Assembly: GCF_023509035.1 (NCBI RefSeq) | Contig: NZ_CP075583.1 | Coordinates: 2,108,001 to 2,172,000, forward strand | DNA length: 64,000 nt | Direction of reading: 5' to 3' | Origin: Janthinobacterium lividum | GTDB lineage: Bacteria; Pseudomonadota; Gammaproteobacteria; Burkholderiales; Burkholderiaceae_D | In this document: positions 5,241 to 62,034 of the stretch, piece after piece | Numbering within the stretch: position 1 is the first letter of the stretch | Layout of the letters: each line of letters opens with the position of its first letter | Position numbers and translations under genes: made by a program | Notes under the pieces: model-generated | The model's input: only the letters and a program-made list of their open reading frames with translations | What the model was told of the DNA's origin: nothing | Databases searched by the model: none

Positions 5241-5784
5241 GCAAAGACCTCGGCAGCTGCCAGTTGCTTGCCCAGTTGATCTTTCGCCGACAGGATGGGG
5301 GACTCGCCATGCAGTGGCCAGTCAATGCCGATAGCCGCATCATTCCAGGCAATGCTGCGCTCAAACTCGGGTGCCCAATAGTCCGTGGTCTTGTAGAGAA
5401 ATTCGGCGCTCTCGCTGGCCACTATGAAGCCGTGGGCAAATCCTTCAGGTATCCAGAGCTGACGTTTGTTCTCGGCAGACAGTACGACGCCGACCCATTT
5501 GCCAAACGTCGGGGAGGAAGCGCGCAAGTCCACCGCGACGTCAAAGACTTCGCCTGCGGTAACGCGTACCAGCTTGCCTTGGGGTTGCTGGATCTGATAG
5601 TGCAGGCCGCGCAGGACATTCTTGCTGGACTTGGAGTGGTTATCCTGCACGAAATTGGCCGTAATACCCGTCAAGTCGGCAAAGCGCTGCTGGTTGAAAC
5701 TTTCGTAAAAAAGCCCCGGTCATCGCCAAATACTTTGGGTTCGAGGATCAATACGTCGGGAATGGCAGTGGTGTGAATTTGCAT
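5237..5784 (-). CDS. rfbC: dTDP-4-dehydrorhamnose 3,5-epimerase, apparent -1 frameshift
   Basis: Epimerises dTDP-4-keto-6-deoxyglucose at C3 and C5. From ATG 5784 the frame reads MQIHTTAIPDVLILEP and runs to GDDRGFF. It then fails at a run of six A on the plus strand (5707-5712), where seven would keep frame. The next frame continues YESFNQQRFADLTGITANF and runs to the stop at 5237, including RGLHYQ (catalytic His) and WIPEGFAHGF. The span of 548 bases is one short of 183 codons, so a single missing base explains everything. A sequencing error is likely, since the pathway is otherwise complete. Confidence 0.92.
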
Positions 5785-5787
5785 GGC

Positions 5788-6681
5788 TTAAAAAATCTTA
5801 TCATTCAACAGGCGTAACAAATATTGTCCGTAACCGTTTTTTTTCAGCGGTTGGGCCAGTTGTTCCAGCTGGGTGGCAGTAATGTAGCCTTTGCGGTAAG
5901 CAATTTCCTCAGGGCAGGCAACTTTCAAGCCCTGGCGGTGTTCGATGGTGGCAATAAATTGGCCGGCTTCGAGCAGTGACTCGTGCGTACCCGTATCGAG
6001 CCAGGCCATGCCGCGACCCATGCGTTCCACCTTGAGCGTGCCACGGTTCAGATAGACGCGGTTGACATCGGTGATTTCAAGTTCGCCCCGCTCGGACGGC
6101 TTGATCGATGCGGCGATATCGGCAATGTCCTTGTCGTAAAAATACAGGCCGGTGACGGCATAATTCGACTTTGGCTGCAAGGGCTTTTCTTCGATGCTGA
6201 TGGCTTGCTGATTGGCGTCGAATTCCACCACGCCATAGCGCTCCGGATCTTGTACATGATAGGCAAATACGGTAGCGCCGTCCGTGCGCTCGGACGCGGC
6301 AGACAGGCTCGATTCGAAATCATGGCCATAATAAATATTGTCGCCCAGAATTAATGCTGAGGGTGCATCGCCAAGAAACTCGCGGCCGATGAGGAACGCC
6401 TGTGCCAGGCCATCGGGTGATGGCTGTACCGCATAGCTCAGGTTAATCCCCCATTGGCTGCCGTCACCGAGCAACTCCCGGAAACGGGGTGTATCGGCGG
6501 GCGTGGAAATGATCAGGATGTCGCGTATTCCCGCCAGCATCAACGTTGTCAGCGGATAGTAAATCATCGGCTTGTCGTACACGGGCAGCAGTTGCTTCGA
6601 GACCGACATGGTCACGGGATACAGGCGTGTGCCTGACCCCCCAGCCAGGATAATGCCTTTGCGGGCCAGTTTGGTTTCCAT
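5788..6681 (-). CDS. rfbA: Glucose-1-phosphate thymidylyltransferase
   Basis: First step of dTDP-rhamnose synthesis, forming dTDP-glucose from dTTP and glucose-1-phosphate. The 297-residue protein starts [20 protein letters not shown], with the GGSGTRLYP nucleotide loop, [12 protein letters not shown], and LGDNIYYG carrying a metal-binding Asp. A longer in-frame start exists 108 bases upstream inside rfbB. ATG 6681 is preferred because it sits in a TGATG junction with the rfbB stop and gives the normal family length. The C-terminus ([12 protein letters not shown]) is the typical RmlA end. Confidence 0.96.
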
Positions 6682-7763
6682 CAGGACTCCGTATTCTGCT
6701 CGGCGCGGGCCGTATAGTTTTTTTCCAGCCACGTCAGGTAGGCGCCGGATTGCACGTCGCGCACCCATGCATCGTTGTCCAGATACCATTGCACCGTCTT
6801 GCGTATGCCCGTATCGAAGGTTTCAGCGGGCTTCCAGCCCAGTTCGCGCTCAATCTTACGCGCGTCGATGGCGTAGCGCCGGTCATGGCCAGGGCGGTCA
6901 GTTACATAAGTGATCTGTTCGCGGTAACTGCCGCCACCTGTCTTTGGCTGCAGTTCATCGAGGATGTCGCACAGGGTATGCACGACGTCGAGATTGGCTT
7001 TTTCGTTCCAGCCGCCGATATTGTAGGTTTCTCCCGTGCGTCCGCTTTCCAGTACCCGGCGAATGGCCGTGCAGTGATCGCTGACATACAGCCAGTCGCG
7101 CACCTGCTGGCCATCGCCATAGATAGGCAAGGGCTTGCCTGCGCGCGCGTTGGCAATAATCAGGGGAATCAGCTTTTCCGGGAAGTGGTAAGAGCCATAA
7201 TTATTCGAGCAATTGGTGGTCAGCGTCGGCAAGCCATACGTGTGATGATAGGAGCGCACCAAATGGTCCGATGCCGCCTTTGTTGCCGAGTAAGGGCTGT
7301 TGGGCGCATAGGGCGTGGTTTCCGTAAACGGCGCATCGTCCGGTCCCAGTGTCCCGTACACCTCATCGGTCGAGACATGCAGGAAGCGGAATGCCGCACG
7401 TTCTGCTTCAGGCAGTGCTTGCCAGTGGGCGCGCACGGCTTCCAGCAGGCTGAAAGTGCCATTGATATTGGTGCTGATAAACTCTGCTGGTCCATGAATC
7501 GAACGATCGACATGGCTCTCCGCTGCGAAATGCACGATGGCACGTGGCTTGTACTCTGCCAGCAGCTGTGCCAGCAAGGCACCGTCATTGATATCGCCTT
7601 TGACAAACAGGTGCCGCGGGTCGTTCTGCACCGCCAGCAAGTTATTCAGATTTCCTGCATACGTCAGCTTATCCAGATTAATTACCGGTTCATTACTTTG
7701 CAGGAGCCAATCCAGAACGAAATTCGATCCGATAAAGCCTGCGCCACCTGTCACTAAAATCAT
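6681..7763 (-). CDS. rfbB: dTDP-glucose 4,6-dehydratase
   Basis: NAD-dependent SDR that converts dTDP-glucose to dTDP-4-keto-6-deoxyglucose. The 360-residue product starts [19 protein letters not shown]. It shows STDEVYG and [11 protein letters not shown] (catalytic YxxxK), both characteristic of RmlB. Start at 7763 is chosen over an upstream in-frame start at 7790 because AGGA lies about eight bases before it and the Rossmann motif then begins at residue 3 as usual. It is the first gene of the nine-gene sugar operon, so the operon promoter should lie in the AT-rich gap just upstream. Confidence 0.95.
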
Positions 7764-12860: not shown

Positions 12861-12897
12861 AAGCCAAACCGCAGACATGCTGGTTTGGCTTTTTTTT
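12861..12897 (+). terminator. Rho-independent terminator of dnaE
   Basis: AAGCCAAACC (12861-12870) pairs with GGTTTGGCTT (12882-12891) around an 11-base loop, followed by a run of T to 12897. It lies 25 bases after the dnaE stop. Confidence 0.9.
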
Positions 12898-12900
12898 CGT

Positions 12901-21509: not shown

Positions 21510-23244
21510 TCAAACCACTTGCTGGGAAAATTGCATGCGATGCAGATTGGCATAGGCGCCGTTGGCATCCAATAATTGCTGGTGATTGCCGGTTTCCATT
21601 ATTTTCCCATGTGACAATACCACGATACGGTCCGCACGTTCAATTGTTGATAGCCGATGAGCAATAACGAGGGTGGTTTTACCTTGCATCAGGTGTTCCA
21701 GTGCCGCTTGCACGGCCCGTTCCGCTTCCGTATCCAGTGCCGAGGTGGCTTCGTCGAGGATCAGGATGGGCGCATCCTTGTAAATCGCGCGGGCGATGGC
21801 CACGCGCTGGCGCTGGCCGCCGGACAGGCGCGAGCCATTGTCGCCCAAACGCGTTTCCAGGCCGTCGGGCAAGCCGTCGATGACGTCCGACAGGAAGGCG
21901 GCCGCTGCGGACGCTTCGATGCGTTGCCGGTCCGGCGCCGCATCGCCATACGCGATATTGGCGGCCAGGGTATCGTCGAACAGCACCACCTGCTGGCTGA
22001 CCATGGCGATCTGGCTGCGCAGGCTGGTCAGGGAGATGGCATCGATATTCTGTCCATCGAGCAAGATATCACCACTGCTGGCCGAGTAAAAGCCGGGCAG
22101 CAGACTGACCAGGGTCGATTTGCCGCCGCCGGACATGCCGACAAAGGCGACCGTTTGTCCAGGCTCTATGCTCAGGTTGATGTGTCGCAGGGCTGGTTCC
22201 TGATGTCCGGGGTAGACAAAGCTCACGTCCTTGAACTCGATGTGGCCGCTGCAGCGTCCAGCGAGCGGCTTGCCGCCCGTGCGCTCCGGTGTCTTGTCGA
22301 TCAGATGGAAGACTTCCTCGGCGGCGGCCATGCCGCGCTGCAGGGGACCATTGACTTCGGCCAGTTGCTTCAAGGGCGTCAGCAGCATCAGCATGGCCGT
22401 GATGAAGGAGACAAAGCCGCCGACCGTGATCTGCCCCTGTTCCGATTGGAACAGGGCCATCACGATGACCAGGGCTACGGCGGCGGCCGTGATCACTTGC
22501 GTGATGGGCACGGTGGCGGAAAAGGTGGTGGTCATGCGCATGCTGTAGCGGCGCAATTGTTCGGCACGCTCTTCGAAGCGCGACTTTTCGTAGTCCTGGC
22601 CGCCAAAGATCTTGATCACTTGTTGGGCGCGCGTGGTTTCCTCGATGACCTGGGTCAGCTCGGCATTGACGGCCAGCGAGTCGCGGTTGAGTTTTTTCAG
22701 ACGCTTGCCCGTGGTGCGCACGACGATGGTCAGCAGGGGCAGCAGCACCAGGGTTACCAGGGTCAGCACCCAGTTCAGGTACAGCAGCCAGGCGAGCAGG
22801 CCCAGCACGGTCAGCGAGGAGCGTACGATCGAGGTAAAACACCTTGGTCACCATCTCGATGATCTGCTGCACTTCGAACATGATGGAGTTGATGACTTTG
22901 CCCACCGTGTGCGTGTTGTAGAAGTCGATGGGCAGGTTCAGCATGCTGGCAAACATCCTGCGCCGCAACTCGTTGAGGATGCGTGTGGAGACATAGCTCA
23001 TCAGGTAGCTGCTGGCAAATGTCGAGGTGCCGCGCATGGCAAAGATGCCGATGACGATCAGCGGCACCAGCCAGATGGAAAAATTCACCTTGCCGCCAAA
23101 ACCATTGTCGAGCAGCAGCTTGAGTGCATAGGGCAGCAGCGGTTCCGTGGCCGCCGTAACGACCATCGCCAGCAGGGCCAGGGCCAGATGTTTCTTATAG
23201 GGCGCGTGCAGTGCGGTGAGGCGCTTCAGGTCGGGCGTGAGCAT
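21510..23244 (-). CDS. msbA: Lipid A export ABC transporter MsbA, apparent +1 frameshift
   Basis: Half-transporter that flips lipid A-core across the inner membrane. The N-terminal frame starts MLTPDLKRLTALHAPYKKHL at 23244 and runs through the first helices to IEMVTKVF. It breaks at four A on the plus strand (22836-22839), where three would keep frame. The other frame resumes TSIVRSSLTVLGLLAWLLY and carries the ATPase domain: Walker A GMSGGGKST, signature LSGGQRQRVAIARA, Walker B ILILDEATSALD. The 1735-base span is one more than 578 codons. MsbA is normally essential, so the extra base is most likely an assembly error. Confidence 0.93.
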
Positions 23245-23294
23245 CGGTATGGTTCCTTGCAGGGACAGCAAAAACGGTCAGGCGAAAAACGAGC

Positions 23295-24507
23295 TCAGGC
23301 AATGCGTTCTTGCTGGCGCAGCATGGCCCACAGCATCACCATCGGGAAGACCAGCATGATGATGCCAATGTTCAAGGTTAGCGAGCTTGTCGTCAGGCCA
23401 AAAATCATATAGCAGGTGCACAGTACCACGCCTGCCAGCGCATATGGCTGGGCTGCAGGGGGTGCTGCGCAGCAGGGCCCGTGCAAACAGGGTCAACGGC
23501 AGCAGAAATAGCAGTAGTAGGGCCAGCAAACCGAAGATGCCGCGCTTGACCAAGGAGTCGATGTAGTCGTTATGCGCATTGGTGTAATGCAATACGATTT
23601 CGCTCATTTTTCCTTCTGCCGATAGCTCTTTCTTTGCATCTAAATAGCCATTGCGCCCCATGCCGAGCCATATATGGTCATCTGATAGAGTTAATGCTGT
23701 ACGCCACATTTCCAGCCTTTGGCCGACGGACGTGCTGACATTGTCGCTGTCTTCAAATTTTTTCAAATCTTCTACGGCATCTGTAGCGCGCTCAAGTACA
23801 GGTGAATTAGGTAGTGCGTAGGAGAGTACCGCCACGGCTAATAGCACCGTCAGCAGGCCAGTCATGTTGTGCTTGCCGCGTGATCTCGCATAATGGACGA
23901 AAAATATGCATCCGCAGACGGGCAGCGCCAGCCAGCCACCGCGGCTGCCGCTGATAATTGAGCCGAAAATGCCGATGAAGCCACCTGCCAGCAGCAATAC
24001 GCTCCAGGCGATTCGGTGGCGCTGTTTGATGGCCCATTCGAACCCACATAGCGTTAACATGCCAAACAGCATGCTGACATTGCCATAGTGAATAGCGTTG
24101 CTGGTGGCGGCCTGTGGCCGGAAGGGACTACTTGGAATAAATTGCGTGGCCGCTAGGGCAGCCCCCGTGATGGCACCGATTGCCAAACCGCTCCACCAGG
24201 CCCCCGGCCGCGGTGGATAAGCGAGTAGTAACAGCAGCACGGGCATGGCCAGCAGTGCCCGCAGGGGCATGTCGAGTTCGCGTGCCGGATCGCCGTGGTA
24301 CAACATATTGGCTGTAAAGATGAGGAAGTACAGCAGTAGCGTACCGAGCATCAGATAATCCCGGCGTTGCAGGTTCAGGCGGGGACGTTTCCATAGCAGA
24401 CAGGTGCTGGCGAGCAGAAGGGCCAGAGCTCCGAATGAATATCCGCTGGTGACAGCCAGCGCCAATGCTGAAAAAAGAAAAACACAAACAGAAGTCAGGC
24501 CGAGCAT
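23295..24507 (-). CDS. O-antigen ligase family protein, apparent +1 frameshift near the C-terminus
   Basis: Polytopic inner-membrane protein of the Wzy_C family, which joins O-antigen to lipid A-core (WaaL) or polymerises it. About ten hydrophobic helices are visible. The diagnostic periplasmic motif HNDYIDSLVKRGIFG lies near residue 315. After ARALLRSTP the frame fails at five G on the plus strand (23458-23462), where four would keep frame. The neighbouring frame continues AAQPYALAGVVLCTCYMIFG through two final helices to RQQERIA and a stop. The 1213 bases equal 404 codons plus one. It is directly upstream of msbA on the same strand, which favours the ligase role. Confidence 0.88.
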
Positions 24508-36529: not shown

Positions 36530-38085
36530 CTACAGTATGCGCAATTGCTGCAGCACGGGCAGTTTGTCACGCAGGAATTCCTCAATGGCGGCGTTGAGCA
36601 GTTGCTGGTGTGCTGCCTCGTCAACGCATGCCACGCCCTCCTTGAGCAGGCGGCGCCCGCAGCGCGCCATGCCGCTGGCCGCCTGCGCCTGTAAGGTGGC
36701 CAGGTCCGGCTGCTGTTTTCGCTTTTGGGCCAGCAACGAAAACAGCAGCCGGTCAATGAATTCCGTGTCGATACCGCTGCCTGTCAATGGAGAGCACAGG
36801 ATGCGGTAGCTGTCGCCGTAGCGCAGCTGTGCGCCGATGGCCTGGTTCAGGCGGTGCGCGGCTGCGTCGCCGCTGTCGCCCTGCGCCTCACCCGGGAAAT
36901 ACATCACGACCTGGCTGCCGGTGACCAGCATGGCCGCCACCTCCGCCAGGCTTTGCACGCTCTGTCCGGGCAAGGAGGGCAGGGCGGCCAATTCGGCCAG
37001 GCTATGCGGGCCGGTCGCCAGCGCGTCGCAGACGGCGCCGTAGACCTGCTCGTTTCCTGTTACTACGCCTGCCTTGGTCTGGAAGGTAAAGGTCATTTTT
37101 TTGCGCGCGGTACCAGCATGGCCAGGTGCATGCTGGCGAGACATTCGGCCTGGCGCACGGCCCCCATGCGGCGTGCGCCCCGCACCAGGACATCCTTGCG
37201 GAAGCTGGTATTGAGAAAATAATCCTTCATCATTTCGCGGATGGCCGCGTCGGGCAGCAAGTCGATGGTGGCTTGCTGGTCGGCGTTCAGATACAGCTCG
37301 GGAAAAGCAAAAGGCAGGTCGGCGGAGCCTGCAAAATCGAGCTTGGCGTGCGCCACATCGCGCATCACGTCGGCGTGGTACAGCGGCTCCCAGTGCTGGT
37401 TCAGGTATTCATGCACGCTGTAATGGGGATCGCTGTTGATGAGCGCATTGAGGCGCGGCGCGAGTGCGGGATTGTCCGTGATGTAGCCAGCCTGCAGGTT
37501 CTGCAACTGCTGCACATAGGCGATGCCAGCCTGCATCTGCAAGTCGCTGCGACCGGGGAAGTTGGCGGCAAACTCCAGCAGCAGGCGTTGCAGGGGCAGG
37601 GCGGAACTCCATCCAGGCATGGCGTTATAGCTGAGTGATACGATGCCGCCCGGTTTCAGATAGCGCGCAATGAAGTCGACGATATGCTGGCGGTTCTCCC
37701 GGTTGACCCAGGTGTAGATGCCGTGCAGGGTAATGAAGTCGAACTGCGGCAGATCGGGCACGCGGCCCTGGGCCAATTCTTCAAAGCTGTTTTCCAGCAG
37801 GGTCAGATTGTCCAGCTGAGCCTTTGCCGCCAGGGCGCGTGCGCCAGCGACATGGGCCGGATTGAAATCGTTGCCGTAGAACTGGCCGTTGGCATTGGCG
37901 GCTGCCAGTACGGTGAGCGTCTGGCCGCAGCCGAAGCCCAGCTCAAAGTAGGTGTAGGGCTGATCCAGGGGCACTGGTTCGATGCCGTTGAGGATGCAGC
38001 TGAAATTGAGGTGATGCGGACTCAGGTCGCTGTAAAAACCGTTGGTGTACTCGATATCCGACACGTATCCTTCATTCCAGGCCAT
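36530..38085 (-). CDS. Class I SAM-dependent methyltransferase with C-terminal regulatory domain, apparent -1 frameshift
   Basis: A methyltransferase of about 518 residues when read across the break. It starts MAWNEGYVSDIEYTNGFYSD. The SAM-binding motif is YFELGFGCGQTLTVLAAA, with GNDFNPAHVAG following. The second part (MTFTFQTKAGVVTGNEQVYG onward) looks like the methyltransferase regulatory domain that usually follows in one chain. Between them the frame reaches TGA after AKK, at seven T on the plus strand (37096-37102), where eight would keep frame. The 1556 bases are one short of 519 codons. Substrate unknown. It sits between the purD side and hemF. Confidence 0.8.
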
Positions 38086-38156: not shown

Positions 38157-38950
38157 TTAGGGCGCCGCTGGCGTGGCGTCGTCCTGCACCACCGTGATGG
38201 ACAGGTCCGCGCCGGCGCCGGGCACGCGCGCACTTTCCACGGCGTGCGCGGCGCGCTGCTGCAGGTCAGGCCGTTCGACGCCCTGCCCGGCGACGGGGGC
38301 GCGGCGGGAGGGGGCGCCTGCCTGGAGACGATGGCGCGGCCGGCAAAGGCCAGTACCAGCAGTAGCAGCGCGGCCACCACCCACGTTCCAGGGCGCGCAT
38401 AGGCGGGGCGCTCCCGGCGGGCCTGGCGCGCGGCGCCATCGACGATGATGCGGCCAAGCTCCGAGCCGTGCTGGCGCGTGCGCAGTAGCTCGAATTGTTG
38501 CGCCGTCAGGGTGCCTTGCCGGAGCATCTCGCGCAGGGCGGCAATCGGCGAGGCGAGCAGGCGGTTCTCTGGCAAGCTGGCGTGGGCGGCGTCGCGCTGC
38601 CACTGGTTGATCAGGTCTTCGTCGTACAGGGTGTCGATGGCCTGGCGGTTGACCAGCTTTAGCGCGTCGGCGGCCAGTTGCTGGCGCTCGAGCAGGGCCG
38701 CGCCGTCATGCTGGCGCGGCAGATCCTGTACGCGCCGCAGGAAGTCGTCCTGCGGCAGCAGATCCGTGAGCAGCAGCCATGCCAGCGCATCGGCGGCACT
38801 CGCGTCGGCCGCCAGTCGTGGCATGTCGACGTCGTCTTCCTCGTCCAGGGCGAGGATCTCCAGTTCGCCGGTGGCGTCGTCGAGTTCATTTTCCGTGATC
38901 AGGCGGAGTTGGCGTACCTGGGCGAGGGCGGGATGGAGGTGACTGGTCAT
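38157..38950 (-). CDS. Unknown single-pass membrane protein, apparent -1 frameshift
   Basis: About 264 residues when read through the break. It has an acidic helical N-terminal half (ENELDDATGELEILALDEED), a basic stretch (ARQARRERPAYARPG), then one hydrophobic helix WVVAALLLLVLAFAGRAIV near residue 200 and a short Pro/Ala-rich end. After APPPAAPP the frame is lost at five G on the plus strand (38295-38299). With six, the chain continues VAGQGVERPDLQQRAAHAVE to the stop at 38157. The span is one base short of 265 codons. I do not recognise the family. It precedes the methyltransferase gene by 71 bases. Confidence 0.6.
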
Positions 38951-39013
38951 GGGCGGTAACTTTGCCTGAAAGGCAAAATCTTAGCGCAAGACCTGTTTTT
39001 CCGGCGCGCCTAT

Positions 39014-39075: not shown

Positions 39076-40345
39076 TTAGTGCTTCAGGCCGCGCCAGCCG
39101 ATGTCGCGGCGGTACTGCGCGCCGTCGAAATGGATTTTTTCCACGGTTTCATACGCCTGTTTCTGCGCCATCTTGATGCTGTCGCCCAGACCCACCACGC
39201 ACAGCACGCGGCCGCCGTTGGTGACCAGGCGCTCGCCCTCGATGCGGGTGCCCGCATGGAAGGTGACGGAGTCTGGCGTTTCGGCCGGGATGTCGCCGAT
39301 CGGCGTGCCCTTGACGGGATCGTCCGGGTAGCCGGCGGCGGCCATGACGACGCCAACGGCCGTGCGGCGGTCCCATTCCAGCTCCACGGCGTCGAGCGTG
39401 CCGTTGACGGCGTGCTCCATGACGGTCACCAGGTCGGTTTTCAGGCGCGCCATGATGGGCTGCGTTTCCGGGTCGCCCATGCGGCAGTTGAATTCCAGGG
39501 TCTTCGGCGTGCCCTTGTCGTCGATCATCAGGCCGGCGTACAGGAAGCCCGTAAAACGTGATGCCGTCCTTGGCCATGCCCTGGATGGTCGGCACGATGA
39601 TTTCGCGCATGACGCGCGCATGCATGGCCGGCGTGACGATGGGGGCCGGCGAGTACGCGCCCATGCCGCCCGTGTTCGGGCCCTGGTCGTGGTCCTTCAG
39701 GCGTTTGTGATCCTGGCTGGTGGCCAGTGGCAGGATGTTCTTGCCGTCGCACATGACGATGAAGCTCGCTTCTTCGCCGGCGAGAAATTCCTCGATGACG
39801 ATGCGTGCGCCGGCGTCGCCGAACTGATTGTCAGACAGCATCATGTCGACAGCCTGGTGCGCTTCTTCCAGGGTCATGGCTACGACGACGCCCTTGCCGG
39901 CGGCCAGGCCATCAGCCTTGATGACGATAGGCGCGCCCATGGCGTCGACGTAGGCGTGCGCGGGAGCGACGTCGGAAAACGTCTGGTAGGCGGCCGTCGG
40001 GATGCCGTGGCGCTGCATGAAGGCCTTGGCGAAGTCTTTCGACGATTCCAGCTGCGCCGCTTCTTTCGTCGGGCCGAAGATTTTCAGGCCGCGCGAGCGG
40101 AACAGGTTGACGATGCCCGCTGCCAGCGGCACTTCCGGACCGACAACCGTCAGGCCGATGTGTTCCTGCTGAACGAAATCGGCCAGCAATTGCGGGTCGC
40201 TGATGTCGAGATTGACCAGGCGCGCATCGCGCGCGGTGCCGCCGTTGCCCGGCGCGACATACACCATCTGTATGCGTTCGGACTGGGCCAGTTTCCAGGC
40301 CAGGGCGTGTTCGCGGCCGCCAGAGCCGACTACCAGAATTTTCAT
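39076..40345 (-). CDS. purD: Phosphoribosylamine-glycine ligase, apparent +1 frameshift
   Basis: Second step of purine synthesis (GAR synthetase), an ATP-grasp enzyme of about 422 residues. It starts MKILVVGSGGREHALAWKLA. The ATP-grasp core has IVIKADGLAAGKGVVVA. The frame breaks after DGITF at four A on the plus strand (39553-39556), where three keep frame. It then continues TGFLYAGLMIDDKGTPKTLE and NCRMGDPETQ to the end WRGLKH. The 1270 bases equal 423 codons plus one. A working purD is needed for growth without purines, so an assembly error is likely. It follows yebC by 58 bases. Confidence 0.94.
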
Positions 40346-44760: not shown

Positions 44761-44789
44761 TTCCTCCACCCACTGAAATGGTCCTCACC

Positions 44790-45180
44790 ATGAAAACACG
44801 CATCGCCCTGATTGCCCACGACAAGAAAAAAAGATGACATGATTACCCTGGCGGGCGAATACCTGGACTTTTTGAAGGGTTGCGAACTGTCGGCCACGGG
44901 CACCACGGGCGGCCGCCTGATCAACGAGCTGGGCCTGGAGGTCGAACGCAAGCATTCGGGGCCGTTCGGCGGCGACTTGCAGATCGGCTCGCTGCTGGTG
45001 GAAGGCTTGATCGATTGCGTGATCTTCCTGCGTGACCCGATGACGCCGCAGCCGCACGAGCCGGACATCAACGCCCTGGTGCGCGCCTGCGACGTGCACA
45101 ACGTGGCGTGCGCAACGAATCTGTCATCGGCGCACCTGGTGCTGTCGCAGCTGCAGGCGCAGGCCAACGCGGCCGCCTGA
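44790..45180 (+). CDS. mgsA: Methylglyoxal synthase, apparent +1 frameshift in an A tract
   Basis: Converts dihydroxyacetone phosphate to methylglyoxal, a bypass that frees phosphate. From ATG 44790 the chain reads [14 protein letters not shown] and meets a stop after seven A (44826-44832). With six it continues [20 protein letters not shown], then TGTTGGRL (phosphate-binding), [10 protein letters not shown] (catalytic Asp) and [13 protein letters not shown], giving about 129 residues. The 391 bases are one more than 130 codons. An A7 run can also allow slippage by polymerase or ribosome, so some product could be made even if the sequence is right. Confidence 0.92.
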
Positions 45181-45213: not shown

Positions 45214-46203
45214 GTGAGCGCAACGATTACCACCAAAGCCATCCGCGTACAGCGCGTGGGCGGCCCGGAAGTGATGGAGTATGTGGACGTGGAACTGCCA
45301 CCGCCGGGTCCCGGCGAAGCGCGCGTGAAGCATGATGCCATCGGCCTCAATTTCATCGATGTGTATTTCCGCACGGGCCTGTATCCGCAGCCGCTGCCCA
45401 ATGGCCTCGGTGTCGAGGGGGCGGGCATCGTCGAGGCGGTGGGCGAGGGCGTCACGGAAGTCAAGGTTGGCGACCGGGTGGCGTATGCGGCGCGCATCAA
45501 TGGCGCGTATGCGCAGCAGCGTAACCTGCCGGCGGCCCTGCTGCTGGTGCTGCCCGAGCGCATCGCTTTCGACACGGCCGCCGCCATGATGCTGCAAGGC
45601 TTGACGGTGCAATACCTGTTCCATCGCACGGTAGCCCTGAAGGCGGGCGATACCATCCTGTTTCACGCGGCTGCGGGCGGCGTGGGCCTGATTGCCTGCC
45701 AATGGGCGAAGGTGCTGGGCGTGAACCTGATCGGCACGGCTGGTTCCGATGAAAAGGCGGCGCTGGCCAAGGCGCACGGCGCGGCCCATGTCATCAACTA
45801 CAACACGGAAAACTTCGTCGAGCGCGTGCGCGAGATCACGGGCGGCAAGGGCGTCTCGGTGGTCTACGATTCCATTGGCAAGGACACGTTTACAGGCTCG
45901 CTCGACTGCCTGGCGCCGCTGGGCATGATGGTCAGCTTCGGCAACGCATCCGGTCCCGTGCCGGCCTTCACCCTCAGTGAACTGGCCTCGCGCGGCTCGC
46001 TCTTCCTCACGCGCCCGGCCCTGTTCAGCTATGCCTCCAACCGCGCGAACCTGGAAGAGATGGCGACTTCGCTGTTCGGCGTCGTCAGCAGTGGCGAAGT
46101 GCAGATCGAGATCAACCAGCGCTACAGCCTGGCCCATATTGCCCAGGCGCACATTGACCTGGAAGGGCGCAAGACGACCGGTTCGACCATCATCGTGCCA
46201 TGA
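45214..46203 (+). CDS. NADPH:quinone oxidoreductase, zinc-independent MDR family
   Basis: A 329-residue medium-chain reductase of the QOR type. Seen: KHDAIGLNFIDVYFRTGLYP, the NADPH-binding DTILFHAAAGGVGLIACQWA, and a C-terminal region ending GRKTTGSTIIVP, all matching bacterial Qor1. It lacks the zinc cysteines of alcohol dehydrogenases. The start is GTG 45214 with AAGGAG seven bases before it. It lies 33 bases after mgsA, and its stop overlaps a small membrane-protein frame (ATGA). Confidence 0.93.
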   Translation: MSATITTKAIRVQRVGGPEVMEYVDVELPPPGPGEARVKHDAIGLNFIDVYFRTGLYPQPLPNGLGVEGAGIVEAVGEGVTEVKVGDRVAYAARINGAYAQQRNLPAALLLVLPERIAFDTAAAMMLQGLTVQYLFHRTVALKAGDTILFHAAAGGVGLIACQWAKVLGVNLIGTAGSDEKAALAKAHGAAHVINYNTENFVERVREITGGKGVSVVYDSIGKDTFTGSLDCLAPLGMMVSFGNASGPVPAFTLSELASRGSLFLTRPALFSYASNRANLEEMATSLFGVVSSGEVQIEINQRYSLAHIAQAHIDLEGRKTTGSTIIVP

Positions 46204-46320
46204 GCGGCGGCAGCGAAAAAGACGGCACGCCGAAGTTCCGGCCGCCTGCTGATCGTGTTGTTACTGGCCGTGGCCCTGATCGGCGTGCTCACCTTTGCCG
46301 CCGAGGCGTATTATTCGTAG
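46200..46320 (+). CDS. Candidate 39-residue single-pass membrane protein, apparent +1 frameshift
   Basis: ATG 46200 overlaps the stop of the quinone oxidoreductase gene (ATGA) and gives the polar start MSGGSEKDGTPKFR. If one of the two C at 46242-46243 is removed, the chain continues RLLIVLLLAVALIGVLTFAA and ends EAYYS at a TAG just before a terminator. That makes a classic small inner-membrane protein: a polar N-terminus, one 20-residue helix and a short tail. The length of 121 bases (40 codons plus one) fits the single-base indels seen elsewhere. No homologue is recalled. Confidence 0.5.
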
Positions 46321-51137: not shown

Positions 51138-51286
51138 GTTGTCCTTGATTTCAGCGCCATGGCTGACGGGAGCAATTTTTACTGAAGCCAGGCCGCGCGC
51201 TCGAACCCAGGCGCGGTGCTCCGCCGGGATACACGGTCTGCAGACTACAATATTGCATTGTCTTTCACATCAACGGAACTTTACCC

Positions 51287-51726
51287 ATGCCCGACAAAAT
51301 CTACCAGTATCTGACCTCGCCCGGTGTGGACGATGGCGATACGCCCCCGTGGTCGATCTCGATCTCTACTTCGCAGGCAATACCGATGAAGAGTCGATCG
51401 CGCCGAACCAGTGGGGCTATGGCCGCCCGCCGATTGCGCAGCTGTATGACATGTTCCGCGAGATCGCCGCCAGGCCGGACGTGGAAAAGGTGCTGGTCGG
51501 CTTGCACCAGGACTGGTGCGATTATGGCCAGGCGGACGTGGACGCGAAACGTTTTCCGGCTGCGGAAAACGTGCATATCTTCACGTCCGCACGCCAGGAC
51601 GAGGTTGAGTGCTGGATCGCCGGCATGGAAGCCGACGGCGTCATCCCTGGCTGGCCTTATGGCAAGCCCGACAACGCTCCTGAGCCGTCAGAGGGCTATA
51701 CCGTGCTGTCGGTCTGCTGGGACTGA
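51287..51726 (+). CDS. Hypothetical protein, apparent -1 frameshift
   Basis: About 146 residues when read across the break. It starts MPDKIYQYLTSPGVDDGDTP. The frame fails at five C (51344-51348). With six it continues VVDLDLYFAGNTDEESIAPN and runs to the stop, ending GYTVLSVCWD. The 440 bases are one short of 147 codons. The protein is acidic and soluble, rich in Asp and Tyr, with no signal peptide. The order of short strands and helices (EKVLVGLHQDWCDYGQ, ENVHIFTSARQDEVECWIAG) suggests a small alpha/beta domain. Family not recognised. Confidence 0.65.
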
Positions 51727-51733
51727 GCGCCGC

Positions 51734-52826
51734 TCAGAAATTGTGCCTTATCCCCAGCGCCACGCCCGACATGGTGGCGCCCTTTGTTTCTGTTTCCCGT
51801 CCCAGGCTGTTGATGGCAAAGTCGGCGATGCCGTGGCGGCCGTTGGCCAGGCGCGTGTAGTAGGCATACAGGCTGCTGCGTTTCGATAGCTGGTAGTCAT
51901 AGCCGGCGGTGGCGTGGGTGGCGCCCGTATCCGCTCCCGCACGCACCGTGCCGATGGTTTCCAGCGCGCTGCCGCTGGCGCTTTGGGCATGCGCCAGGCC
52001 GAAACGCAGGCCGTGGCGGCCGAACTGGCGCTGTGGCGGAAAAGTAGGCCGTGCGCCGGCGCAGCTCACCCGTGGGCGTGGCGTAGCGCAGGCTTTCCAG
52101 CACCACCGCCAGCTGCGTGGCGCTGTCGATCCTCCAGGCCAGGGCCAGCTTGCTGCCATGGTCAGTCAGGCCCCGTCCCTGGTAGTCGTGATGGTCTTCC
52201 TGCGCCAGGGTGGCATATAGGACGCCGCCGTCGTAGATCAGGGCGGCCGAGGTCAGTGCCGGATGCGCGCCGCTGGCGGGGCGTTCTTCCCCCATGCCAC
52301 GCGCCACGCGCAGCGACCAGCCCTGCCACTGCGGCGTCCAGTAATGCACGCTGTTCTGCTGGCGCCGGTCGAAGGAATACGTGTTGCTGGTATTGCTTTC
52401 GGTGGCGCCCGCGCCGTTGCCCATCAGGCTCATGTAGCCGGCCGTGGTGGGATAAAACGGGTCGAGCGCGGAGGTGGCGCTGTTGTAGGGCAGGGTCCAG
52501 TTGCCAGCAAAGAGCGTGCCCCACGGGCCGGCAATGCCGACACGCGTGTCGCGCGCGGCGATTGACCCCGTGCCCGTGTCGGGCGACAGCGTGCCCTCGA
52601 CCTGGAACAGCGCCTGCCAGCCGCCGCCCAGGTCTTCGCTGCCGCGAAAGCCGAGTACCGAGCGATTGTTGGAGACACGCTGCACGTTGTTACCGCTGCC
52701 GGAACCATGCAGCGCTTCGACCGCCACGTTCAGGCGGCCGTACAGCTGCACATTTTCTTGTGCCGCGGCGGGCAGCGCTGCCGCCAGTGCCAGGGCACCG
52801 GCAGCGCATGAAAACACGCACCTCAC
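51734..52826 (-). CDS. Gram-negative porin (16-strand general porin), apparent +1 frameshift
   Basis: Outer-membrane porin of about 363 residues, of the betaproteobacterial OmpC-like type. A GTG start at 52826 with GAGG upstream gives a signal peptide ending LPAAAQ, then ENVQLYGRLNVAVEAL and NRSVLGFRGSEDLGGGWQAL, typical of the family. The frame breaks after YFSATA at GG on the plus strand (52027-52028), where a single G keeps frame. It continues QFGRHGLRFGLAHAQSA to SGVALGIRHNF with the C-terminal Phe. The 1093 bases equal 364 codons plus one. It starts eight bases after the amidohydrolase stop. Confidence 0.88.
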
Positions 52827-52833
52827 CCGCGCC

Positions 52834-54705
52834 TCAAAACGCAAAGCAGCTGCACCCCAGCGCGCCCCAGAAGCCGGAGTGGCTGGAGACGGGCACGGAA
52901 CTCTTGCGCGCCACGTCGTGGGCGTGGGCGTGCACGCCGCAGGCACCCTGGCACTGGTGCTGCATGACGCTGCTCTTTTGCGGCGGCGCGGCGCGGTAGT
53001 GGCCGGCCACGTTTTTCACGGGCGACCAGTCGGGCAGCACGGGAATCGGGGGCGGCGCCAGCTTGGTAAATTCCGCCTGGCCGTAGACGATCTTGCCGCC
53101 GACGATGGTGAGCACCGATTCGATCGACTTGATCGCCTCTTCATCGATGCTGAAAAAATCCGCGCTCAGCACGGCCAGGTCGGCCAGCATGCCTTCCTGG
53201 ATGCGGCCCTTCTTGCCTTGCTCGCTGGAGAACCAAGCGCTGCCCGCCGTCCACAGTTCCAGCGCCGTGTCGCGCGACAAATGGCTGCCCGCGTCGTACA
53301 GGCGCAAGCCGCCCACGGTGCGGCCCGATACCAGCCAGTACAGCGCCGTCCACGGGTTGTAGCTGGCGACCCTGGTGGCGTCGGTGCCGCCGCCCACCGG
53401 CACGCCCGTTTGCAGCATGCGCGCGATCGGCGGCGTGGCCTTGGCCGCTTCGGCACCGTAGCGGTCGACAAAGTACTCGCCCTGGAAGGCCATGCGGTGC
53501 TGGATGGCGATGCCGCCGCCCAGCGCCTTGACCCGGTCGATGTTTTTCGGCGTGATGGTTTCGCAGTGGTCGAACATCCAGTGCAGGCCGTCGAACGGGA
53601 TATCGCGGTTGACCTTTTCAAAGACCGTCAGCATGCGGTCGATCGATTCGTCATAGGTGGCGTGCAGGCGGAAGGGCCAGCGTTTGGAGACCAGGTGGCG
53701 CACCACCTTTTCCAGTTCGTCGTCCATGCCGGGCGCCAGGTCCGGGCGCGGCTCGAGGAAATCCTCGAAGTCGGCGGCGGAAAACACCAGCATTTCGCCG
53801 GCGCCGTTATGGCGGTAGTAATCGTCGCCCTGGCCCGGCGTGACCATCTCCGTCCATTTTTCAAAATCTTCCAGTTCGCGGCCCTTGTTTTGCGTGAACA
53901 GGTTGTAGGCGATGCGTATCGTCAGCTGCCCTTCGCTTGCCAGCTGATCGACCACCGCGTAGTCTTCCGGATAATTCTGGAAGCCACCGCCCGCGTCGAT
54001 GGCGCTGGTCAGGCCGAGGCGATTGAGTTCGCGCATGAACTGGCGCGTGGAGTTGACCTGCAATTCGCGCGGCAGGGTCGGACCCTTGGCCAGGGTTGCA
54101 TATAAAATCATGGCGTTCGGGCGTGCTATCAGCATGCCGGTCGGGTTGCCGGAAGCGTCGCGCACGATTTCGCCGCCGGGCGGATTCGGCGTATTTTTAT
54201 CGTAGCCGACCACGCGCAAGGCGGCGCGGTTGAGCAGGGCGCGGTCGTACAGGTGCAAGATGAAGACGGGCGTATCTGGCGCCGCGGCGTTGATTTCATC
54301 GAGGGTCGGCATGCGCTTTTCCGCGAACTGGAATTCATTCCAGCCACCGACCACGCGCACCCATTGCGGGTTCGGCGTGCGCAGGGCCTGTTCCTTGAGC
54401 ATGCGCAGGGCGTCGGCCAGCGAAGGCACGCCTTCCCAGCGCAATTCCAGGTTGTAGTTCAAGCCGCCACGGATCAGGTGCAGGTGCGAGTCGTTCAGGC
54501 CGGGAATCACGGTGCGGCCACCCAGGTCGATCACGCGGCTGTCGGGCGCGCGGTGGCGCATGACGTCGTCGGCATCGCCGACGGCGAGGAATTTGCCGTC
54601 GGCGATGGCCACCGCGCTCGCTTGCGGGCAGCTTTTATCGACGGTATGAAAGCAGCCATTGAGCAAGATCAAGGGGGCGGTGGCGGGGAGGGTATGTTCT
54701 GGCAT
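52834..54705 (-). CDS. Amidohydrolase family protein (YtcJ-like, amidohydrolase 3)
   Basis: A 623-residue metal-dependent hydrolase. The N-terminal beta-sandwich leads into RTVIPGLNDSHLHLIRGGLN with the HxH metal motif. Later come FRLHATYDESIDRM and WMFDHCETITPKNIDRVKAL (metal ligands), and GGTDATRVASYNPWTALYWL. It matches the long-chain YtcJ-like group usually annotated as amidohydrolase of unknown substrate. The last 40 residues are His/Cys-rich (MQHQCQGACGVHAHAHD), unusual for the group and perhaps metal-binding. It is the upstream partner of the porin gene. Confidence 0.88.
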   Translation of the reverse strand: MPEHTLPATAPLILLNGCFHTVDKSCPQASAVAIADGKFLAVGDADDVMRHRAPDSRVIDLGGRTVIPGLNDSHLHLIRGGLNYNLELRWEGVPSLADALRMLKEQALRTPNPQWVRVVGGWNEFQFAEKRMPTLDEINAAAPDTPVFILHLYDRALLNRAALRVVGYDKNTPNPPGGEIVRDASGNPTGMLIARPNAMILYATLAKGPTLPRELQVNSTRQFMRELNRLGLTSAIDAGGGFQNYPEDYAVVDQLASEGQLTIRIAYNLFTQNKGRELEDFEKWTEMVTPGQGDDYYRHNGAGEMLVFSAADFEDFLEPRPDLAPGMDDELEKVVRHLVSKRWPFRLHATYDESIDRMLTVFEKVNRDIPFDGLHWMFDHCETITPKNIDRVKALGGGIAIQHRMAFQGEYFVDRYGAEAAKATPPIARMLQTGVPVGGGTDATRVASYNPWTALYWLVSGRTVGGLRLYDAGSHLSRDTALELWTAGSAWFSSEQGKKGRIQEGMLADLAVLSADFFSIDEEAIKSIESVLTIVGGKIVYGQAEFTKLAPPPIPVLPDWSPVKNVAGHYRAAPPQKSSVMQHQCQGACGVHAHAHDVARKSSVPVSSHSGFWGALGCSCFAF

Positions 54706-54954
54706 GGTGCAGCTCCATGGTTGCGGTGCAGGGGGAGGGGGCCGGCGTGCGCGGCGCGAAAGTCACGTCGTCCAGTGTAGCGGAGGTCCCACGGTTGAAC
54801 ACGGGCCAAAAGATCAGGTGGGCCGTGGCGTACTGGCCGAATGACGGGGGCGGCGGCCTGCCGCATGGCTTACCATGCAGGCAGTGGCGCCGGGGCGCTT
54901 CCCTGGCGCGTTTTTCGTTTTTTTAGTGCATTGCACAGTATCAGGAGTCATTCG

Positions 54955-55653: not shown

Positions 55654-55659
55654 CCCACC

Positions 55660-58600
55660 ATGCGTCTGCCCGTCCTGGCCGCGCTGTGCTGCCTGCCCTT
55701 GCTGCTGTTGTTCAGCCCTCCCGGGCTGGCCATCGGCGCGGCGCGCGGCATTCACCAGCTGCAGCACACCAGCTGGACGTCCAGGGATGGCGCGCCGGAC
55801 GATATCAGCGTCATCGCCCAGGGCGGCGACGGCTTCCTGTGGCTGGGCACCCATTCTGGCCTGGTGCGTTTTGACGGCCTGCGTTTCGCGCCCTTGCGCG
55901 CGCGCAAGGGCGCGTTTCCCGATACGGTGACCTTGGCCCTCAAGCGCGCAGCCGACGGCGGCATGTGGGTGGGCTGGCAAGTGGGCGGCATCAGCCATGT
56001 CAAGGATGGCGTGGTGCGCAATTACGGCGAGGCGCAGGGTGTGCGGCCCGGTTCCGTCTGGGGTTTCGCCATCGACGCCACGGGCGCCGTGTGGGCCGCC
56101 GGTGTGGCCGGGGTCTCGCGCTTCGATGGTCGGCGCTGGCAGGCGATGGGGCCGGCGCAGGGCTACACGGCGCAAAAGGCCTCGGCCGTATTTGCTGACC
56201 GCGACGGCAGGCTGGGCGTGTTCAGCGAACAGGGCGTGTTCCTCTGGCAGCCGGGCCAGGCGCGCTTCGCGCCGCCCGTGGGCGGCCTGGACTTGCGCGC
56301 GCCACCGCAGCAGGGACCGGACGGCCGCCTGTATCTGCTGGAGCAGCGCGGCATCCGCATCATCGATACGCTCGAGCGCTACGACCAGCTCGACCATCGC
56401 TGGATCTACCGCGATACGAGCGGCACCAGCGGCAGCATGCTGGTCGACCGCCAGGGCACCCTGTGGTTCGACAGCCAGTTCGGCCTGCACCGCACGCGCA
56501 GTGCCGGCGCGCTGGGGCCGCAACAGCTGGGCATCAGCGGCGACACGGAATCGTTCCTGCCCCGCGACGGCTTGAGCAATGTGCTGATCGGGTCCCTGTG
56601 CGATGACAACGAAGGCAATGTCTGGGTCTCCACGTATGCAGGCCTGGACCGCTTTCGCCAGGCCGCGCCCGTGATCCTCAGCGCGCGGGGGCCCGGAGGT
56701 GCCCGAGGTCTTCCGCGCCCAGCAGCTGTCGCCCGGCACCGGGGGCCGCATGTGGCTGTCGCGGGAAGGCGATGCGCCGCTGATGCTGGTTGCGCCCGAC
56801 GGCAAGGTGCTGCGCGCACCCGCGCTGGGACCCATCACGGCCATCATGGCCGCGCCGCGCGGCATCCGCGTCGGCACCCGCGCCGGCTTGCTGCAGCTCG
56901 ATGGCGAGGTTGGCCGCCTGCTCGAGACGATTGCCTATCCGCCGGAAGCGGCCGCCCTGAAACGGGTGCGCATGGCAGTGAGCGCGCCCGACGGCAGCCT
57001 GTGGGCGATTTTCAGCGGCGCCGGCGTGTTCCAGTACACGGGCGGCGCATGGCGGCGCGAAACGGCCTTGCCCGAGGGCGGGCGCAAAGTGCCGCTGGTG
57101 CTGCTGGCCGATGCGGCCGGCCGCCTGTGGCTGTCCTATCCGGACGGCAGCGTGGCGGTGCTCGAGGGCGGGCGCCTGGCCAGTTATGGTCCCGCGCAGG
57201 GCCTGAACCTGGGTAAGGCGCCAGCGCTGTTTGAGACCGGCGGCCAGCTGCTGGCGGGTGGCCAGCGGGGCCTGGCGCTGTGGCGCGGCGGGCGCTTCGT
57301 GCCGCTGCGCGCCGCAGCGGCCGGCGTCTTCGACGGCGTGGTCGGCATGCTGCGCGCGCGCGACGGCAGCCTGTGGCTCAATGCGGGTAATGGCGCCGTG
57401 CGCGTGGCCGCCGCCGAGGTGGTGCAGGCCCTGCGCGATCCATCCCACCCCATGCAGGCGCAGTTGTACGATGGCGCCGATGGCTTGAGCGGCAAAATGA
57501 GTTTGTTGCATAACGGCTCGATAGCCGAAGCGGATGATGGCAGGATCTGGTTTTCGCGTCAGAGCGCGACCTCCTGGATCGACCCGCGTCAACTGCTGCT
57601 GCCGCTGCCGGCGCCGCAGGCCGAGATTGGCGCTTTGATGGTCGATGGCCGGAGCGTCGCCGTCGCCGACTACGAGCGCCTGCCTGCCGGCACGCGCGAC
57701 GTGCAGTTCGATTACAACGCCAGCAGCCTGGGCACGCCGGCGCGCCTGCGTTTCCGCTATCGGCTGGAAGGGTATGACAAGGACTGGCAGAACGCGGATG
57801 ATCGGCGCCAGGCGCAATACACGGGCCTGGGACCGGGCGCCTACCGTTTCCAGGTGATGGCCTTGAATGGCGACGGCGTGGCCAGCACGGTGGCGCAATT
57901 GCCATTCCGCGTGCTGCCCGCCTTTTACCAGACCTGGTGGTTCCGCAGCCTGTGCGCAGCGGCGCTGCTGGCCGCCGCGTATGGGGCTTACCGATGGCGG
58001 CTGCGCCAGCACGCCGCGCGCCTGCAGACACGGATGGAGGCGCAGCAGGCCGAGCGCGAACGCATCGCGCGCGAGCTGCACGATACCCTGCTGCAGGGCA
58101 CGCAGGCGATGATCCTGCACTTTCACAATGCCAGCATGGCCATTGCCGAGGATGATCCCGCGCGCGCCGCCATGCTGCGCGCGCTCGACGACGCCGACCG
58201 CATGCTGGGCGAGGGGCGCGACCACGTGCACGACTTGCGCGCCGGCGACGCCGCCGGTGCGCGCTGGAGCGCCATCCTGCGGCGCGAAGGCGAGCGGCTG
58301 GCGGCGCAGCACGGTATCGTGTTCCGCTACGCGGAAGAAGGCGAGGCGCGTCTGCTGCATGCGCGCGCCGCGCATGAAATCTACCGCATCGCCAGCGAAG
58401 CGCTGCGCAACGCCTTTCAGCATGCGCGCGCGCAGGTGGTTGAAGTGGTGGTGCGCTATGCGTGCGGCGGCATCGAGCTGCTCGTGCGCGACGATGGCCA
58501 GGGCTTGCCGCCGGTGGTCGCGGCGAACGGGCAGATTCCCGGACACTGGGGCATGCCCGGCATGCGCGAGCGCGCCGCCAGGCTCGGAGCGCGCCTGTCT

Positions 58601-58738
58601 GTGGGCGGGCGTGACGGGGGTGGCACGCAGTGGCGCCTGCGAGTGCCTGCGCGCCGCGCCTGGCCGGCAGAGCACGGCCCGCTGCGCCGCTGGTGGCAGC
58701 GCTGGCGCCGCTCAGGCGTCGAGGATGCCGCGCCGTAG
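55660..58738 (+). CDS. Beta-propeller (two-component-regulator propeller) sensor histidine kinase, apparent +1 frameshift
   Basis: A kinase of about 1025 residues. A signal peptide (ALCCLPLLLLFSPPGLA) leads into a periplasmic beta-propeller with repeats such as GDGFLWLGTHSGLVRFDG and DGGMWVGWQVGGISH, then a Y_Y_Y domain (FRYRLEGYDKDWQNADDRRQ). One helix near residue 770 precedes HisKA_3 (IARELHDTLLQGTQAMIL) and ATPase (ASEALRNAFQHARA) domains. The frame breaks at five G (56687-56691), where four keep frame: AR, then GPEVPEVFRAQQLSPGTGG. The 3079 bases equal 1026 codons plus one. It converges on a NarL-type regulator with a 27-base overlap. Confidence 0.9.
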
Positions 58739-59344: not shown

Positions 59345-59554
59345 GATGTTGTCTGGCAAAGAGGAGTTATCGATCAAGAGTCGTCGGAGCAGGGTAAGCA
59401 AAAGGCATTTTACCGCAGTGCTCGCCGGTCTGCAGGAGGGGATTGCCCGGGGACAAGCTACATGCCAGCCTATATTTAGATAGTGGTGCGGACACGCCGC
59501 CAGGCATACGATGCACGGCAGTACCCACTCAACCCTTTCTTCATGGATGACATC

Positions 59555-60241: not shown

Positions 60242-60262
60242 GCGCCGCGCGGCAGTGCCATG

Positions 60263-60297
60263 CGCCGCGCGCCTGACCGCGCGCGGCGTTTTTTTTT
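60263..60297 (+). terminator. Rho-independent terminator after the isochorismatase-like gene
   Basis: A perfect 10-bp stem, CGCCGCGCGC (60263-60272) with GCGCGCGGCG (60279-60288), a 6-base loop and nine T. It lies 21 bases after the stop. Confidence 0.93.
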
Positions 60298-60315
60298 CAT
60301 CGAAAGGAATGCGCC

Positions 60316-60597
60316 ATGAAGTTATATGTGATTTCGCTGGCCGTGGGTTTGCTGGTTGGCATCATCTACGCCGTCTTGCAGGTGCGCTCGCCGGCGCCGC
60401 CCGCGATAGCCCTGATCGGCCTGCTGGGCATGCTGATCGGCGAACAGATCGTCCCCAGCGTCAAGCGCCTGATGGCGGGCGAGGCCATCACGGTGTCGTG
60501 GCTGCGCAGCGAATGCGTGCCGAAGATCAGTGGCGTAGAAGCGAAGCCAACACTGGCCAAGGCCGCGCCGCAGCAGAAGGACGACAGCGCCGCCTGA
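60316..60597 (+). CDS. XapX domain-containing small membrane protein
   Basis: A 93-residue protein starting MKLYVISLAVGLLVGIIYAV. Two hydrophobic helices (about 3-22 and 30-48) enclose QVRSPAPPAIALIGLLGMLIG, the XapX domain pattern. The rest is a soluble tail. AAAGGAA lies before the ATG. Function unknown. XapX proteins are often beside hydrolases of the isochorismatase type, as here, although the terminator between them suggests separate transcription. Confidence 0.88.
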   Translation: MKLYVISLAVGLLVGIIYAVLQVRSPAPPAIALIGLLGMLIGEQIVPSVKRLMAGEAITVSWLRSECVPKISGVEAKPTLAKAAPQQKDDSAA

Positions 60598-60620
60598 ATT
60601 CCGTCTGCCGAGTCGCTACG

Positions 60621-61302
60621 CTAGAACGCGCCCAGCAAGCCGCGCCGGGCGGCCACCGTGGCCGCCTCGGTGCGGCTTGATACGTTGAGCTTGGTCAAAA
60701 TATTATTCACATGAAATTTGACAGTGCCCACCTCGATGCCGGCGCTGCGCGCGATCATCTTGTTGCTCTTGCCCGCTGACAGGTGCAGCAGGATGTCGTG
60801 TTCGCGTTTCGACAGGCGGTTCGCCTCGATGCGGCCGGCCTGCTGCACCGCCAGTTCTGGCGGCAGGTAGTGCCTGCCGGCGGCCACCTGGCGGATGCAC
60901 TGCGTCAGTTGCAGGAAGCCGGAATCCTTCAGCAGGTAGCCCGCGCGCGCCGGCGCGCAGGGCCCGGTGCACATTGTCCTCGCCCTGGTAGGTGGTAAGG
61001 ATGATGATCTTTGCTTGCGCGTCGTCTGCGCAGATGCGCTCGATCGCCTCGACGCCATGCATTTCCGGCATGTTCAAATCCATCAGCACCACGTCGGGCC
61101 GCAATTGCCGGTACAGCTCCACGGCGGCGCGGCCCGTGTCGGCCTGGCCCAGCAGGCGTAAGCCAGGCAGTGACGCGATCAGCGAGGCCAGGCCGGCCAG
61201 GATCAGCGGGTGGTCGTCGGCGATCAGCAGCGAGATAGGGGGAGCGTCGTCGTCGTCGCGGAGCATGGTCGTGTGCAAGGTCGTGTGCATGGCTGTGCTC
61301 AT
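60621..61302 (-). CDS. NarL/LuxR-family response regulator, apparent +1 frameshift
   Basis: About 226 residues when read across the break. The receiver has LLIADDHPLILAGLASLIAS and DVVLMDLNMPEMHGVEAIER. After RALRAGAR the frame is lost at CCC on the plus strand (60940-60942), where CC keeps frame. It resumes GYLLKDSGFLQLTQCIRQVA and the LuxR HTH (LSKREHDILLHLSAGKSNKM, EVGTVKFHVNNILTKLNVSS). The 682 bases equal 227 codons plus one. ATG 61302 overlaps the stop of the preceding kinase (ATGA), so they form a pair. Confidence 0.88.
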
Positions 61303-62034
61303 GGCGCTGGCAGGGTGAAGTGGAAGACGCTGCCGTGGGGCGCGCCGGGCGCATGCCACAGGCGGCCGCCATGCGCGTCGAGGATGCGACGGCAGATGGC
61401 CAGGCCCATGCCCATGCCGTCCGGCTTGCTGGTATACAGGGGAGTGGTATAGACGGCCGGCCGCCTGCGGCGCGATGCCGGCGCCATTGTCGGCGATGCT
61501 GAAATGCTGCACGACTCCATCCAGGTGCGAGGACAGTAGCACCGTGCGCGGCCGGCCGCTGGTGTCGCGCAGCGCCTCGATAGCGTTCATCAGCAGGTTC
61601 AGGACGACTTGCCGGAATTGCACCGGGTCGGCGTGCAGCAGCGGGCGGCCCGGCGCCAGCTGCGTTTCCAGGTGGATCGCGTGCTGCTGCAGTGGTGCGC
61701 GCAGCAGCGGCAGCAGGTCTTGCACGGCGTCGTCGGCCACAAAATGAGCGTGGCTGCCCGGCGCGTTGCAGGCCAGGCCATGCACGCTGCGCAGCACGGC
61801 ACTGGCGTGGCTGCCGGCGCTGGCGACCAGGGCCAGCGCCGCGCGCGCCTCGTCGAGGCGGGGCGGATCGTGATCGAGCCAGCGCAAGGCGGCATCGGCA
61901 TTGAGCGCGATGGCGGCCAGCGGCTGGCGCACTTCGTGCGCGACCGATGCGGCAAATTCGTCCATGCCGCCCATGCGCCGCGATTGCGCGATGCCGGGGT
62001 CTTGTTTCTGAGGGAAATAATGCATGCTGGCCAT
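61299..62034 (-). CDS. Short cytoplasmic sensor histidine kinase, apparent +1 frameshift
   Basis: About 244 residues when read across the break. It has no membrane helix or PAS domain, only a HisKA box (SVAHEVRQPLAAIALNADAA) near residue 32 and an ATPase domain (VVLNLLMNAIEALRD, FSIADNGAGIAPQA). After GRLY the frame fails at GG on the plus strand (61446-61447), where one G keeps frame. It resumes TPLYTSKPDGMGMGLAICRR to HFTLPAP. The 736 bases equal 245 codons plus one. AGGAG precedes ATG 62034. With so little N-terminus, sensing must be cytoplasmic or through a partner. Confidence 0.85.

Follow-up and report, generated by a model that had tools for sequence, protein, structure and literature searches.

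Frame breaks in a Janthinobacterium genome are almost certainly assembly errors, part of which follow the motif GTAAAC

Thirteen genes lose their reading frame at one point each within a 64,000-base stretch of the genome of a strain of Janthinobacterium, an environmental bacterium. These breaks are almost certainly sequencing errors, and the feature as a whole an artefact of assembly. The stretch, hereafter the window, comprises bases 2108001-2172000 of a single-contig genome of 6,262,330 bases, for which completeness is listed as 100% and contamination as 0.15%. The breaks are best explained as residual consensus errors, most likely of a long-read (probably nanopore) assembly without short-read correction, and the probability of this explanation may be put at about 95%. 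It follows from four observations: the breaks are absent in relatives, they recur at comparable density elsewhere in the chromosome, conserved genes are hit like any others, and no decay is seen downstream. An earlier note on the window had already held consensus error to be likelier than decay, a view that these observations support; what is new beyond it is the presence of breaks elsewhere in the chromosome, a split metK, and the fact that part of the breaks follow a methylation motif. The evidence comes from sequence comparison.

The PurD open reading frame (ORF) of this genome shares 97-99% identity with its counterparts in six Janthinobacterium genomes, whereas identity to other genera does not exceed 90% (80 loci kept). 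The window was compared with ten relatives, namely LM6, GW458P, UMAB-56, ROICE36, J. psychrotolerans and five other genomes; relatives are labelled G006, G010, G014, G022 and so on, the window's own genome being G000. Proteins predicted in the ten relatives served as tblastn queries, and for 10 of the 13 sites the stretches before and after the break were matched in different frames of one strand ("two frames" below). The broken genes are as follows.

5243..5784, minus strand: rfbC (dTDP-4-dehydrorhamnose 3,5-epimerase), break near 5707-5716; PF00908 downstream of the break; two frames against one relative only, G014.
21513..23271, minus strand: msbA, break near 22837-22844; TIGR02203 over cut-off downstream of the break; two frames against 9 relatives.
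23298..24465, minus strand: O-antigen ligase gene (waaL), break near 23434-23473; PF04932; two frames against 9 relatives, in 3 of which the predicted protein is itself short (103-232 amino acids versus 389-393).
36533..38085, minus strand: methyltransferase gene, break near 37099-37105, net difference two bases; PF10119 and PF13649; two frames against 4 relatives.
38160..38959, minus strand: gene of unknown function (38297), break near 38282-38324; no Pfam match upstream of the break; two frames against 8 relatives.
39079..40345, minus strand: purD, break near 39548-39627; TIGR00877 over cut-off upstream of the break; two frames against 10 relatives.
44779..45180 (start approximate), plus strand: mgsA (methylglyoxal synthase), break near 44826-44832, near the start; NF003559 over cut-off; private indel against 10/10 relatives, tblastn aligning the downstream part only, with the first 11-15 residues missing.
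46200..46320, plus strand: small ORF of 37-39 amino acids in relatives, break near 46238-46243; private indel against 10/10 relatives, the ORF being open in 5/5 relatives compared directly.
51286..51726 (start approximate), plus strand: gene of unknown function (51346), break near 51344-51348, near the start; no Pfam match; support from one relative, G010, tblastn aligning the downstream part only, with the first 20 residues missing.
51737..52844, minus strand: porin gene, break near 52030-52042; PF13609; two frames against 5 relatives.
55660..58735, plus strand: large sensor histidine kinase gene, break near 56678-56700, net difference two bases; PF07494, PF07495, PF07730 and PF02518; two frames against 5 relatives.
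60624..61302, minus strand: response regulator gene, break near 60940; PF00072; two frames against 5 relatives, private indel against 5/5.
61302..62052, minus strand: small histidine kinase gene, break near 61440; PF00512 and PF02518; two frames against 5 relatives, private indel against 4/5.

The thirteen frame-broken genes listed in the earlier note are present in the sequence, and at least one relative keeps the frame at every site; alignment of the loci to close relatives, the check that it had proposed, finds the breaks absent there, with support uneven among sites. Its description of each break as a single-base indel requires correction at 37096 and 56687, where the net difference is two bases (in 4/4 and 5/5 relatives). 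Of its positions, that of the porin break was about 5 bases off, and the exact columns at waaL and 38297 are uncertain owing to diverged or low-complexity sequence. The nine insertions and four deletions that it reported were recovered from the alignments in the same 9:4 division, lengths being reduced modulo three where two bases differ or the sequence is diverged. Miscounting by the earlier reader is ruled out by the private indels, the alignments, the tblastn frames and the open ORF in relatives. At purD, the query measures 1197 nucleotides here and 1196 in 36/36 full-length matches; of the 39 further Janthinobacterium genomes compared, three gave only partial matches. A coding-break pipeline run over the window counted 7, 7, 7 and 2 breaks against G006, G014, G022 and LM6 respectively, while the reciprocal control over the window gave zero breaks in these four; one of the seven against G022, at 61984, lies outside the list of 13. 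Part of the window (51140-63777) is an accessory block carrying the porin and two-component systems, which is without alignment to LM6, GW458P, UMAB-56 and J. psychrotolerans, and inside which the ROICE36 contig stops; it is present almost entire in G006, G014, G022 and several other relatives.

A separate search for private indels (of 1-2 bases, setting the genome apart from 80% or more of the relatives that cover the place, with a minimum of three relatives) returned 12 in the window, half of which belong to the 13 sites, and between 1 and 11 in each of the relatives when applied to them likewise. The private short indels outside the 13 stand at 12889, 36424, 47154, 62052, 62181 and 63324. 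The comparison with G014, and with no other relative, also showed a possible extra frame break at 14454.

The defect is not confined to the window, a point not noticed in the earlier reading. Two further blocks of 400 kb, at 0.4-0.8 and 5.0-5.4 Mb, were compared with G006, to which DNA identity there is about 93%, and over 582 kb of aligned coding sequence 53 coding breaks were counted in this genome versus 2 in G006 (33 and 20 by block, against one each). Left uncounted among 285 frame-changing gaps in the blocks were 178 intergenic in both genomes, 9 genic in both, and the rest near gene ends. The resulting density, about 0.9 for every 10 kb of coding sequence aligned, is comparable with that of the window (53 in 582 kb and 7 in 51 kb, both against G006), which rules out a cause specific to the window, such as a mobile region or a phase-variable locus, and would extrapolate to very roughly 500 breaks in the whole genome. 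As expected of long-read consensus error, the breaks are private to this assembly and spread regardless of gene importance, the spread being sampled on the window and the two blocks and the privacy resting on one relative at rfbC and 51346.

Two processes may have produced these errors: homopolymer runs would have been miscounted, and modified bases would have been miscalled, most clearly at GTAAAC. Runs of at least four are found at 29/53 block breaks in the longer allele and at 20/53 in the relative's allele, counted without a background rate. Bacterial assemblies built from long reads only can, according to one report, retain hundreds of errors, for the most part frameshifting homopolymer indels (PMC8812927). 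The present genome resembles the assemblies described there and in PMC12007338 in being a single contig with frameshifts in many genes and intact relatives, and possibly in the prominence of homopolymers; it differs in the 24/53 breaks outside runs of at least four, in its excess of gains over losses and in the prominence of one motif.

That motif, GTAAAC, ranks first among 2080 6-mers for its excess of one-base insertions against G006: 8/93 sites carry an inserted base, versus 0/84 in the reciprocal control, and under another flank filter the figures are 8/89 versus 1/78, with 3 of the 89 one base shorter. Four of the eight insertions are, by our own reading, among the 53 coding breaks. At similar 6-mers insertions are absent or few, being found at 0/68 ATAAAC, 0/19 CTAAAC, 0/38 TTAAAC and 0/414 GGAAAC sites, and at 3/478 GAAAAC, 2/483 GCAAAC, 1/96 GTAAAT, 1/181 GTGAAC and 1/144 GTAAAG sites. 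The GCAAAC, GTAAAT and GTGAAC cases read GTAAAAC in this genome, which would follow had the base that it carries there created GTAAAC. Within the window, the msbA break is of the GTAAAC type, with GTAAAC in 5/7 relatives aligned there. At purD the window reads GTAAAAC and the relatives GTGAAC, so that its assignment to the hotspot is indirect and it was not counted as a clear case. Several insertions, in both blocks and at window 46242, have a CGAAC context; GCCGAAC, tried as a second hotspot, gave 2/411 versus 0/397 in the control, too weak to claim.

Motif counts in 40 genomes of the genus, expressed as the share of GTAAAAC in GTAAAAC plus GTAAAC, agree with this. The share is 0.468 here versus a mean of 0.377 (standard deviation 0.020, maximum 0.403, z about 4.5) in a near group of 24 relatives whose purD identity is 95% or higher. 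Weighing the other way, 2/15 more distant genomes have higher shares, 0.488 and 0.469, and the genome-wide comparison therefore holds only within the near group. The excess implied by the share is about 140 at some 970 GTAAAC sites.

GTAAAC is one form of GTWWAC, a motif that is reportedly mentioned in Cupriavidus papers. GTWWAC carries N6-methyladenine (m6A) in Ralstonia (PMC11460718), and m6A orphan methyltransferases with this specificity are given for Ralstonia and Burkholderia, M.RsoORF1982P and BCAM0992 (PMC5390034, PMC7364216). Among nine papers returned by a literature search for GTWWAC, no title names Janthinobacterium, the two words not having been searched jointly. Given that GTAAAC is a form of this m6A motif of Ralstonia and Burkholderia, the hotspot suggests nanopore miscalls at methylated sites, and the enrichment at a motif that methylation-induced error would produce is seen for GTAAAC. 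Some nanopore assembly errors have been ascribed to methylation (PMC12392509), and the present case is like those in that errors fall at some, not all, occurrences of the motif, and differs from them in that the motif is deduced from the consensus alone. A possible enzyme is at hand, the genome having three PF01555 matches, two of them over the cut-off, of which the best is the following.

G000:C1:1167206-1167865 (L272:1411-2343): PF01555 methyltransferase ORF, 310 amino acids, NCBIfam matches below cut-off.

Its neighbour ORFs we take, from our own reading of the sequence, to be hisD and hisC, and the protein is a candidate for the enzyme behind the hotspot. The likeness to the orphan methyltransferase system of Ralstonia and Burkholderia lies in GTAAAC being among the forms of its motif and in the possession of a PF01555 methyltransferase; the difference is that the NCBIfam matches of this enzyme fall short and that it is a candidate ortholog only.

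The error pattern may thus be an imprint of the methylome, whereby a GTWWAC-type m6A in Janthinobacterium would be readable from a deposited assembly set against its relatives, without raw signal; the odds of this are about even, and if it is true, the 140 or so excess sites among some 970 would be mis-called. Alternatively, the breaks would be consensus errors all the same and the GTAAAC hotspot a plain weakness of the basecaller or polisher involving no DNA modification, an account of the hotspot's cause only. Consistent with such a weakness, within GTWWAC only GTAAAC is clearly affected: the other forms, GTTAAC (0/12) and GTATAC (1/10), have too few sites to speak for the motif in full. However, both flanks of the A run matter to the effect, GTWWAC forms have an insertion at 9/111 sites (8 of the 9 being GTAAAC) versus 4/1810 for other GTNNAC 6-mers, and the hotspot matches a motif methylated in Ralstonia and Burkholderia, all of which make a weakness of this kind less likely than not. 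Both the sequencing platform and methylation as the cause of the motif effect are what we infer from these patterns.

Real gene decay, in which the strain has lost these genes, has in its favour that the frame breaks do stand in the sequence and that pseudogenes occur in many bacteria. Decay is expected, however, to spare indispensable genes and to relax the part of a gene after the break, and neither is found among the genes sampled. Breaks affect 48 of the 534 genes whose alignment covers 90% of the length or more, and when conservation is taken as second-codon-position identity the quartiles from lowest to highest hold 14/134, 9/133, 11/133 and 14/134 broken genes, the most and least conserved being equally hit. 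Break position along the gene, with the outermost 60 bases excluded by design, does not differ significantly from uniform (Kolmogorov-Smirnov p = 0.15), the last fifth holding only 3/53. Codon-wise selection persists past the breaks: divergence at codon positions 1, 2 and 3 is 3.3, 1.9 and 14.0% upstream and 3.4, 1.8 and 14.3% downstream, as compared with 3.7, 2.1 and 14.6% in unbroken genes. Ten broken block genes, hand-picked and thus non-random, were named from the relative's intact protein; eight are over a curated cut-off (elongation factor G, methionine adenosyltransferase, YihA/YsxC, formamidopyrimidine glycosylase, sigma-54, PstB, PstC and 5-formyltetrahydrofolate cyclo-ligase) and two, lipid A acyltransferase-like and FadB-like proteins, are below it. 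In a whole-genome search metK gave two adjacent matches in different frames, covering model positions 1-258 and 258-376, and no further copy beyond the split one. With the sole metK found split, downstream selection unchanged, and 53 breaks here versus 2 in G006, whose DNA is about 93% identical in the blocks, decay is highly improbable.

Equally improbable is a mutator strain, in which loss of mismatch repair would give real indels at runs. Many sites do lie at short runs, but the MutS_V match falls in an open frame of 1024 amino acids without stops (MutS was not aligned full-length), the MutL match spans model positions 1-554 of 555, also without stops, and a mutator should still spare indispensable genes, which are not spared here. 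Recoding, by which programmed frameshifting or transcriptional slippage would bridge the breaks, can point to several sites at A or T runs of six or seven, and is the least probable of all: relatives' frames are uninterrupted, the sites share no single common signal, both directions occur, and many lie at G/C runs or at no run. Consensus error fits the data as a whole; decay, a mutator and recoding do not.

Several observations nevertheless weigh against consensus error. The private indels of J. psychrotolerans, the most diverged relative in that count, reach 2.98 per 10 kb as compared with 2.12 in the window, so that the private-indel count alone is not decisive. The 53 block breaks were taken without hand curation, doubtful cases among them being an event of 8 bases and ambiguous gaps lying close together in one gene, and those outside runs of at least four, 24 in number, are so even in the longer allele. 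Gains outnumber losses, by 30 to 23 in the blocks and 9 to 4 in the window, and residual nanopore errors are mostly losses.

A genome scored as 100% complete by marker genes still has 48/534 sampled genes broken together with the only metK found, and the completeness score gives no warning of such frame breaks. Pangenome, pseudogene and metabolic analyses using this genome would report false losses. More broadly, should methylation be what causes the motif effect, information on modification motifs could be recovered from unpolished assemblies.

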